From Ascidia mentula (taxonomy: Eukaryota > Chordata > Ascidiacea > Phlebobranchia > Ascidiidae): a stretch of DNA of 64,000 nucleotides. Location of the stretch: positions 3,911,001-3,975,000 of the forward strand of contig OX387204.1 of NCBI GenBank assembly GCA_947561715.1. The letters run 5' to 3'. Shown here piece after piece: positions 41,394 through 45,833 of the stretch (positions are counted from its first letter, which is position 1; every line of letters begins with the position of its first letter). The translations under genes and the position numbers were made by a program. A model generated the notes under the pieces. The model saw only the letters and a list, made by a program, of their open reading frames with translations. It did not search any database and was not told the DNA's origin.

Positions 41394-44300
41394 ATGTCAA
41401 TCGATTTAGCATCGCAAATGGTCAAAGGGAAGGTAACCTACGGTGGACATGTTTTCCCTATTCATTTTGAACCCACTATACAATTTACAGACCTGAGATC
41501 AAAGGTAAGTGTTTTTTACTGCTAAATGTGTTTGTCAGTTTCAGGCAAATTTAATTAGTTAAAATGTTGATAGTTATACAATGGAATGTGGTACCAATAT
41601 GTATGTTTCTACAGTTTCAAGCAGGTTGCAATCTATCAGATGCGCAAGTGTTCACCATTAAGTGGATTGATGATGAAGGGGACCCTTGTACAATCACGTC
41701 ACAGGTCTGCTTTAAACTGAGATATTATCATGTGTCCACAGTTATGAAAAATCACTTGATTACTGCAAACATATTTATAATACTTCTGTAATTTAATGCC
41801 TACAATACCAATGTACAATGAAATCAATAAGCAAGTCGTCACTGGATGACATGTGCGTCAGATAATTTCACCGAAAAGGAAAAATAAGTGTGAATATCTA
41901 AAATATTTGTGTTTAGCTGGAGCTATCGGAAGCAATTCGATTATATGAGATAAATGGTGAAGATGCACTTTTGTTTCATGTCTTTCCTGGCATACCGACT
42001 GAACCAGGCATGCTCTGTCCTGGTGAACACAAAATATACAGGTTGGGATTCATTTAAATATAAGTATTATAAAGATATGCTTTAAGTGTTTACATAACTT
42101 GGTGACACATTCTAATGCTCATGTGCATAAAGTAGGATGTGTATGCATACTGACTCTTTGCCATTTTTCATGGTTTGAACTGATATAATTAGAGTCTAAT
42201 AATTGTATATGCCTTTAGACGCGGTGCAAGAAGATGGTACAAACTCAAAAGAAAACTAAAACGCTTCAAAAAACGACCGAGAATACCAATTTATCCAATC
42301 CCTGAACATCTGGAGAGGCCAGAAACGAAAGTAATTACCTAGAAAACTGCTGGTGTATTTCTTTATTGTTTTTGCACTATTTATTTAAATTATATGATAT
42401 GTGTATTAAAACACGGATTAACATCAATCATGTTTTGGAAAATGTATGTGAACTTCTACTAAATTTTCATGTCTTATATTGTTCCTTTGTTTTTATAGCA
42501 TGACGGACCCCCTTCACCAACCCCAGGGTTTGGTTTAAATGATTTTGACATGGTCAAAGTTATTGGCAGAGGAAGTTATGCAAAAGTGTTGCTTGTTAAA
42601 CTGAAAACCACCCAGAAGCCGTATGCCATGAAGGTCAGTTGCCTCCCTTACTATCAGATACATAACATACATTCCCACCAGTGGTAACAGAGGGAGTTGC
42701 TTACTGTAGCTATTTACCCATTGTCTGCTATTTGTATGTGCACCATTTTTAGATAAGAATAAAGTGTTTAACAAATGGGTGTAACAAAAATTGTTGTATA
42801 AAATGATTTGACTGCAAGCTTCATTTTTTTGATTTCATTTTATCAAACTACTCATTATATTTGTAAATATATATATACAATATATATATACACGTTTATT
42901 ACATTTATCATGAAGTGGCATAAACTGATGCCAGCCTACCTAATTACAGTGTGTAGTGACTTGATTAAGTGTTTAATTTGTACTGGGTTCAACAGGTTAT
43001 AAAGAAGGAACTTGTTCAAGATGAAGAGGACATTGATTGGGTTCAAACAGAGAAACACGTTTTTGAGACTGCTTCAAATTATCCTTTCCTTGTGGGACTT
43101 CACTCTTGTTTTCAGGTCAGTAACAGATAAGGTTTTTAAATTGTTGTGTAGTGTGTTTGTAGTTCTGCAAATATGACATTTGCATAGTTATGTGCTTGTA
43201 CAATAAACCTCTAAACAACTGTTATCGGAGTGTAGTTGTTTTGTTTGACTGCTAAAAGTCTGTTTTGTGTGTAAAAATGTTTTTCAATGTAAAGAGTCTG
43301 TTGATGTGGGTTTCATCCATTTGTGTATGTTAAGTTTGTTCCTTAAGCAAACACTACCATGTTGCGTGATGGATAAAAGAATTCATGTAAATATACATGT
43401 ATTGCTATTTTTTACTGTTGCTTGTTTTTTGTGCAGACACCTGCACGATTGTTTTTTGTGATCGAGTATGTAAGTGGAGGCGATCTTATGTTCCACATGC
43501 AACGTCAACGCAAGTTGCCAGAGGAACATGCAAGGTTAAACATATGATTGTGTATTTATGTATAGATATAAAATGTATAAATGGACCATTGTAATAGTCT
43601 TGTGTTGGTGGTGGAGCTTGAGTGCTTGCAATACTTGGAAAAACATTGTCTTCCTGTTAATTTCTGATTATTAATTACTCGCAAATTGCTACTAACAACA
43701 AATGCGATGTGGCAAAGGTTAGTAAAACAGGCAGCAGTTTTTCTTAACTTTGCAAGACCAACTTTTTTGGGGTATTTATTTGTATTGTTGGGTATATGAA
43801 ACTAACCAGACCACATTCAATAAGGGTTTGTGTTGAACAGGTTTTATGCTGCCGAAATCATCCTTGCTTTGCATTTTCTCCACGAGAAAGGAATCATATA
43901 TCGTGATCTGAAACTTGACAATGTGCTTCTTGATAGTGAGGGTCACATTAAACTTACTGATTATGGCATGTGTAAGGTAGGTACATTAACTTGAGGAAGC
44001 ATTTGTTTTGTAAACAAACATCGTCAGTCGAAAAATTATGAATGTTACTGTAAACATTATTATATAAGTATTACAGTTATTTACTGATATTCATATACAT
44101 TTTTACCTTTTAAAAACTATTTGGGATAAAATGAAACTTTATTCTTTTATTCTTACACCTTTTTAGGATAAAACACAAATTTTTATTCTATTAATTTATG
44201 AACATTCTAAACCTTTGTGTTCGTCATAATTCATCAACAGGAAGGGATCAGGAAAGGTGACACCACAGCTACCTTCTGTGGGACGCCCAACTACATTGCT

Positions 44301-45833
44301 CCTGAGATATTGAGAGGGGAAGACTATGACTTCTCAGTTGACTGGTGGGCTCTTGGTGTTCTTATGTTTGAAATGATGGCCGGGAGAAGTCCTTTCGATG
44401 TTGTTGGAATGACTGATAACCCGGAACAAAATACAGAAGATTATTTGTTTCAGGTGAAAGACTGATCAGTCAAATATTAACAGAAATCCTGAGTTTTGTT
44501 TCTTGGAAGCATTTTTATTGCCAGCGTTATGTTTGCTTACTACTTAACAACTGTTCCTGCAAGGAAATAAAACTTTCTAGTGTTAGACAACCCACTTTGC
44601 CTGTTGTTTGTTTTAAAATTGAGCAGTGTTACAACCCCCACAAAATGGTTATGCAGCTTTGTTTTGTGTTTCCTTTAAAGTTCTCTAACCTAAATTTTAT
44701 CATAACCTTTTCAATTTGATGATGCATTATTCTGTTTCCAAAATCATGGTTTCCTGTAGTCATAATAATTGTTTCTCTCTGTATTATTCTGTTGTTTAGT
44801 TTTTGTGAATTATTTTAAATTGGAACTTTCTGTTATGAATATCATTCTTTGCTTAATTTGTAGACATACAATAAAGTTATACTTTTGCAGGTTATTTTGG
44901 AGAAAGTAATCCGTATTCCTCGTTCACTTTCAGTGAAAGCTTCGTCAGTGCTAAAAGGTTTCCTTAACAAAGTGCCTCAGGTTGGTGTTGTGTTGATGTA
45001 AAATTTTGTTAGATGCATACAGATGGCTGTTTTAACATATAATGTCTCATTGGTGCAGCTTAATGTGACTATGGACAGTATTGCTGGCCAAACAAAGACT
45101 TCCACTTTGTGTTGTGACTATTAGTAATATTGTTATGTTGATCTTACAGGATCGCCTGGGTTGTCATCCTGAGGGTGGCTTTAAAGATATTTTAGAACAT
45201 CAGTTCTTTAGAGCAATTGATTGGGACCAACTTCACGCAAAACAGGTAGGCAGTTGAACCATGACTACTAATTTGGGTCGAGAAGCAATCTTGTGAAGCA
45301 AATTTTATTATTTTGCAAAGGTTGTTCCGCCGTACAAACCCAACATAGAGGATGAACATGGGTTGGATAACTTTGACAAGCAATTTACCCAGGTGGGTTG
45401 GGCTGTAAATTTGGACTGTGATGCCGAAATTTGATTTTGTAGTCCAGTAACAGGCAATGATTTGATAAAAATTTATACATATGAGATGAAACTTGCTGCA
45501 CAAAATAATTCAATCTTTTTTTTGAAATTATAGCCACCTAAAATCATAAAAGATATTCCGTATAAAAATGAAAAACGATGTATAATACATTGTTTTACTG
45601 CTATTTTTTGTCATATGTTATCTTGACATTTTAGTTGTTAATTACTAGTTAATATTTTCTTGTGTTCTACACTCTGTCAGTACTGTTTAACGTCCATTTA
45701 TGTCATGTTTATGTAGGAACCAGTACAACTGACACCAGATGACACACAAGTAATTTTGAAAATCGACCAATCAGATTTTGAAGGGTTTGAGTACATCAAT
45801 CCCCTACTCATGACCAGCGAAGACGTTGTTTAG
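41394..45833 (+). CDS. atypical protein kinase C lacking a C1 domain
   Basis: Thirteen exons (41394-41504, 41615-41704, 41917-42041, 42219-42330, 42499-42633, 42996-43115, 43437-43534, 43841-43976, 44241-44453, 44891-44980, 45150-45245, 45321-45392, 45717-45833) join in phase into 504 residues; vertebrate PKC iota/zeta have about 590. Order: PB1 domain (residues 1-107; acidic [11 protein letters not shown], the Par6-binding site), pseudosubstrate YRRGARRW (about 108-115), a polybasic run ([14 protein letters not shown]), a short linker, then the kinase: [11 protein letters not shown] with Lys191, YRDLKLDN, the aPKC-typical DYG in LTDYGMCK, activation loop [12 protein letters not shown], turn motif QLTPDD and acidic hydrophobic motif FEGFEYINP. 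The C1 zinc finger expected after the pseudosubstrate is absent, and the intron there is only 168 bases. The kinase acts in Par-complex polarity. Confidence 0.93.
42866..42893 (+). repeat. AT microsatellite in aPKC intron
   Basis: TATATATATACAATATATATATACAC, simple repeat. Confidence 0.7.
45043..45125. repeat. dispersed MITE-like repeat, copy 3
   Basis: Shares GGTGCAGCTTAATGTGACTA, GCTGGCCAAACAAAGACTTC and CACTTTGTGTTGTGACTATT with the copies at 4786 and 22892. It sits in intron 10 of the atypical PKC gene. Confidence 0.6.

Follow-up and report, generated by a model that had tools for sequence, protein, structure and literature searches.

A window of 64,000 nt of Ascidia mentula DNA, the whole stretch analyzed here, contains an intact gene for an atypical PKC (aPKC) on the plus strand (Table 1). 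The window is located very probably on chromosome 8 of assembly kaAscMent1.1, which has a consensus QV of 64.9 (PMC11109543). The gene is composed of 13 coding exons encoding a protein of 504 amino acids. Its coding sequence of 1515 nt, including the stop codon, is open to TAG, and all 12 introns have GT..AG borders. Gene models were built by enumerating splice sites up to 4 nt from homologous blocks, which produced two models without a stop. The alternative model deletes conserved kinase residues, and the 504-residue model was kept instead.

Table 1 Features of the aPKC gene and of the surrounding window
Feature	Position in window	Strand	Residues	Basis or remark
aPKC gene	41394-45833	+	504 aa	13 coding exons
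Exons 1-4	41394-41504, 41615-41704, 41917-42041, 42219-42330	+		gene model
Exons 5-8	42499-42633, 42996-43115, 43437-43534, 43841-43976	+		gene model
Exons 9-13	44241-44453, 44891-44980, 45150-45245, 45321-45392, 45717-45833	+		gene model
PB1 domain, over exons 1-3	41421..41985	+	10-90	PF00564, E 3.3e-13
Pseudosubstrate RRGARRW	42040..42237	+	109-115	alignment, identical to human IYRRGARRW
Intron 3, 177 nt	42042..42218	+		no possible C1 exon
Polybasic run, 10/14 K/R	42241..42282	+	117-130	gene model
Linker, end of exon 4	42283..42330	+	131-146	no human-linker similarity beyond shuffles
Intron 4, 168 nt	42331..42498	+		no possible C1 exon
Kinase domain	42550..45209	+	164-430	Pfam Pkinase
AGC C-tail	45360..45794	+	456-492	Pfam Pkinase_C
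Cytochrome P450, intronless open frame	38914-40551	+		PF00067, E 2.4e-111
Arf-family GTPase, single frame	48022-48723	-		
14-3-3 protein, single frame	59941-60714	+		
Two open frames, retroelement gag/protease-like	8618-10509	-		by eye; zinc-knuckle-like CFKCLGAGHYIDAC; no Pfam match
3-kb direct duplicate	10733-13767 and 18241-21278			97% identity
Repeat pair	271-2885 and 13800-16392			95% identity

The cytochrome P450 frame is positioned directly upstream of the aPKC gene. In each copy of the 3-kb direct duplicate there is an open frame of about 340 codons on the minus strand; that of the first copy was tested and gave no match in Pfam. The two pairs of repeats suggest recent tandem or segmental duplication.

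The aPKC protein consists of a PB1 domain, a pseudosubstrate, a kinase domain, and an AGC C-tail. The codon of the first pseudosubstrate residue, R109, is split by intron 3. An LTPDD turn motif and an acidic residue in the hydrophobic motif are hallmarks of aPKCs; the Ascidia protein has QLTPDD at residue 470 and the acidic hydrophobic motif FEGFEYINP at residue 487. The activation loop and the catalytic and aPKC motifs that were checked are intact. In phmmer comparisons, the kinase scores 671 bits with PKC iota and 397 bits with PKC beta, the next family. Judged by its kinase sequence, the gene is an aPKC, nearer to PKC iota/zeta than to cPKC, nPKC, or AKT. The kinase and C-tail (residues 157-503) share 282 of 347 positions with human PKC iota, and the PB1 and pseudosubstrate share 64 of 113. 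The identity given in a preliminary description, an aPKC with PB1, pseudosubstrate, and kinase, is borne out by both Pfam and phmmer.

The segment between the pseudosubstrate and the kinase domain

By kinase and PB1 sequence the protein is classified as an aPKC, yet it departs from the canonical PB1-pseudosubstrate-C1-kinase architecture. The PB1 and the pseudosubstrate RRGARRW are present, whereas the β-strand linker with Tyr136, which reads RKLYCA in the human protein (PMC10754278), and the single DAG-insensitive C1 zinc finger are absent. A Pfam scan of the 504-residue protein matched PB1, Pkinase, and Pkinase_C; with E values up to 1 admitted, C1 was not among the matches, and the segment from RRGARRW to NDFDMVKV matched no Pfam family on its own at E up to 10. 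Human PKC iota (PRKCI; PDB 9ejk) has the PB1, YRRGARRW, kinase, and turn and acidic hydrophobic motifs in common with the Ascidia protein, and residues 7-119 and 137-503 of the latter align to it in phmmer. In between, the 17 ascidian residues 120-136 stand opposite the 94 human residues 137-230, where human PKC iota has the β-strand linker with its Tyr136, the C1, and a long linker. The similarity extends through YRRGARRW.KL and ends inside the β-strand linker, the site of which reads YKLKRK, and the conserved tyrosine is also gone. The interval from the pseudosubstrate to the kinase contains no cysteine and only two histidines (in PEHLE and KHDG).

The preliminary description considered a single intron of 168 bases at the point of loss. 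Two introns matter, the 177 nt intron 3 and the 168 nt intron 4, but its claim that no C1 exon is hidden there holds for both. Cassettes in the two introns had to be flanked by AG..GT or AG..GC, to leave at least 40 nt on each side, and to be in frame and stop-free. Five cassettes qualified, all of them in intron 3, and the longest encodes 9 amino acids. Therefore, the introns offer no room for a C1 exon, and their translations show no C1. An assembly gap in intron 4, which would have undermined the loss, is absent, as the 64,000 nt of the window contain no N. A Cys/His-rich open stretch of intron 3 matched nothing in Pfam at E up to 10 and was rejected as an exon because the intron upstream of it would be 23 nt long. 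A frameshifted C1 in exon 4 was also rejected, the other two forward frames having one cysteine in total and one stop each. Six-frame scans of 41300-45900 and 30000-64000 gave no match to the patterns of the middle and C-terminal half of C1. The pattern of the N-terminal half has five matches in 30000-64000, one of which, at 43384, falls in the aPKC gene, in an intron of the kinase-coding part.

The boundary of the loss is inside exon 4, and not at the intron where it had been placed before. This position, together with the phases 2 and 0 of the exon 4 borders, gives no clear sign that a single exon was simply dropped. The loss more likely came about by a deletion inside an exon or spanning several, after which the sequence diverged. 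The in-place deletion proposed in the preliminary description is possible, but the linker aligns to its human counterpart no better than shuffled sequences do. When the tail of exon 4 was aligned as the human post-C1 linker, its score was equaled by 839, 543, and 730 of 3000 shuffles at three gap settings, and the correspondence was rejected. The motif KRFKKR had been regarded as a remnant of KRFNRR, which opens C1. Its local alignment to the C1 of fly aPKC has a score of 23. Shuffling the 28-residue segment attains this score in 223 of 5000 cases, and shuffling 12 residues from the basic run does so in 305 of 5000, so the likeness can arise from composition and is a weak argument for a remnant. 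Exon 4 was rejected as a repeat, since a genome search in which very common words were skipped found exon 4 itself as the sole match. In collections of bacterial and viral contigs, no relatives were confirmed.

The polybasic run is positioned where human aPKC has the β-strand linker and the start of C1. Together with the pseudosubstrate it forms a 22-residue block, residues 109-130, with a net charge of +14, and no other 20-mer of the protein is as basic as the one beginning at residue 109. The block contains fourteen basic residues, against six in the human RRGARRWRK. The pseudosubstrate and C1 of fly aPKC have a net charge of +18. Compared with the +14 found here, this indicates that much of the positive charge is retained in a shorter stretch. 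The helical moment of a 14-residue segment, which was picked post hoc, is 0.723, a value reached by 102 of 5000 shuffles.

aPKC and C1 exons in the rest of the genome

The genome that we searched comprises 195.8 Mb in 79 contigs; the published one has 197.0 Mb in 95 sequences (PMC11109543). When the whole protein was searched for exon by exon, 85 of 379 candidates were scored; they yielded 91 matches, none of them a second aPKC. Residues 1-142 of the query matched at the window locus only, among the 85 scored candidates. Kinase matches elsewhere are at most 67% identical. The two at 67%, over 52 and 54 residues (on C2 and C67 of the searched genome), lie no more than about 5 kb from C1 exons, a proximity to be expected for other PKCs; the match on C70 is 42% identical over 347 residues.

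A search with the C1_1 profile at E up to 0.001, in which 58 of 58 candidates were scored, returned 17 exon hits. None of them is in the window, and none has the aPKC pattern, as judged by eye from the translations. The fly aPKC C1, used as a query, had eight genome matches at E up to 1, with identities of 31-41% and a best E of 7.5e-7. None of the eight appears by eye to be of the aPKC type; seven overlap the 17 profile hits, and the eighth is on C71. The absence of C1 from the aPKC gene, noted in the preliminary description, is confirmed at the genome level by Pfam, alignment, and pattern scans.

A PB1 family search of the genome missed the PB1 of the window itself, which is split over three exons, so a finely split paralog or C1 could be missed in the same way. 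PB1 exons that, by eye, resemble those of Par6, p62, and MEK5 are present in the genome, as are matches to the Lgl and Par3 families; a kinase of the Par complex would bind Par6 and phosphorylate Lgl and Par3. The genome also contains two GH6 matches (E 9.2e-6 and 1.1e-4); tunicate cellulose synthase carries a GH6 domain.

Possible functions of the polybasic segment

Whether the pseudosubstrate or C1 is the membrane-targeting element of aPKC is disputed (PMC10754278, PMC10333572). In human PKC iota, RRGARR and residues of the C1 loop form one membrane-binding surface. Substitution of RRGARR or of C1 loop 2 in the human regulatory module abolished membrane binding in mitotic cells, and, according to the authors, the pseudosubstrate or C1 alone provided insufficient membrane affinity in human cells (PMC10333572). 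The pseudosubstrate is described as binding mainly phosphoinositides and C1 as binding anionic lipids of other kinds; each of the two also represses the kinase (PMC10754278). In fly neuroblasts, membrane binding reportedly occurs mainly via C1, and deletion of the pseudosubstrate has a minor effect (Jones et al. in PMC10754278); in other fly cells and in mammalian cells, the pseudosubstrate is crucial (as summarised in PMC10754278). Deletion of C1 raises the basal activity of fly aPKC (Graybill et al., cited in PMC6539039).

The aPKC-deltaC1 mRNA of Helix lucorum, like the ascidian aPKC, is without most of C1 and keeps the kinase. However, in Helix a 132-base segment is absent from one of two mRNA isoforms, of the splicing origin of which the authors are almost sure, whereas in the ascidian the gene itself has no C1. 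The C1-less mRNA of the subesophageal ganglia stands to the C1-bearing one at about 2:1, and the authors state that, to their knowledge, a C1 deletion is undescribed in other organisms (PMC6539039). PKM zeta resembles the ascidian protein in being an aPKC kinase without C1, but it is without all upstream regulatory domains (PMC6539039), while the ascidian aPKC retains PB1 and the pseudosubstrate. In a search of freely accessible literature, the Helix isoform was the only C1-less precedent, and there was no tunicate case. The loss of C1 at the level of the gene is a further step in the direction already seen in Helix. A study by Sasakura from 2003 is said to have had the aPKC of Ciona as its subject.

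We consider it somewhat more probable than not, from the sequence, that the aPKC of Ascidia mentula permanently lost C1, and that its lengthened basic pseudosubstrate carries membrane binding together with Par6 and Cdc42, with autoinhibition through the pseudosubstrate. The kinase would still join the Par complex through PB1-Par6 binding. In the closed enzyme, the elongated basic stretch would rest on the kinase, with autoinhibition by the pseudosubstrate alone. Binding of Par6 to PB1 would free the stretch from the kinase, and the freed stretch, possibly as an amphipathic helix, would bind anionic lipids at the membrane. One element would thus do the job that is shared by the pseudosubstrate and C1 in human PKC iota. 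Two regulatory inputs would disappear with C1, namely the contact that C1 makes with the kinase and the switch at Tyr-136 in the β-strand linker.

A polybasic run doing the work of C1 would fit part of the published aPKC biology. However, the human need for both elements and the dominance of C1 in fly neuroblasts mean that direct binding might just be weaker without C1. More tentatively, we speculate that one ascidian lineage replaced the C1 of its single aPKC by an elongated pseudosubstrate, in which one switchable polybasic helix both inhibits and anchors the kinase.

It is also conceivable, if unlikely, that C1 disappeared because it was dispensable, with Par6-Cdc42 and Par3 as the sole route of the kinase to the cortex and the polybasic run being incidental or mainly reinforcing the inhibition by the pseudosubstrate. 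The genome does contain exons that resemble Par6 and exons of the Par3 family, and the excess of C1-less mRNA in Helix (PMC6539039) points in the same direction. On the other hand, 10 lysines and arginines among 14 residues right after the pseudosubstrate seem unusual for a neutral linker, and human data assign a role to direct lipid binding (PMC10333572).

We find it improbable that the main role of the basic run is that of a nuclear localization signal (NLS) standing in for the one in the human C1 loop. By the rule for basic NLSs, a 12-residue stretch does resemble such a signal. Arg150/151 of human C1 indeed form part of an NLS (PMC10754278), but the ascidian run is fused to a lipid-binding pseudosubstrate.

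There is little likelihood that the assembly or the search missed a C1 carried by some transcript or by a second gene. The evidence comes from genomic DNA, the searches score the best candidates, and the one for the PB1 family missed the split PB1 of the window. Against this, the flanking introns are too short, the sequence is gap-free and of high consensus quality, a single aPKC locus was found, and no aPKC-type C1 exon was among the matches read. Decay of the gene, with the loss of a normally conserved domain as part of pseudogenization, is hardly credible given the frame free of stops and frameshifts, the kinase and C-tail identity with human PKC iota, the intact motifs, and the lack of another aPKC locus, among those found, that could take over.

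A permanent loss of C1, with its work passed to the basic pseudosubstrate, would bear directly on the dispute over the membrane-targeting element. A chordate in which the only detected aPKC, a master switch of cell polarity, has no C1 is a ready natural experiment on C1 function. If polarity in the ascidian is normal, C1 is non-essential, and the lengthened polybasic stretch could be tested directly for sufficiency. Should the elongated pseudosubstrate have replaced C1, the Ascidia protein would represent a minimal aPKC, and Par polarity in this chordate would not require C1.
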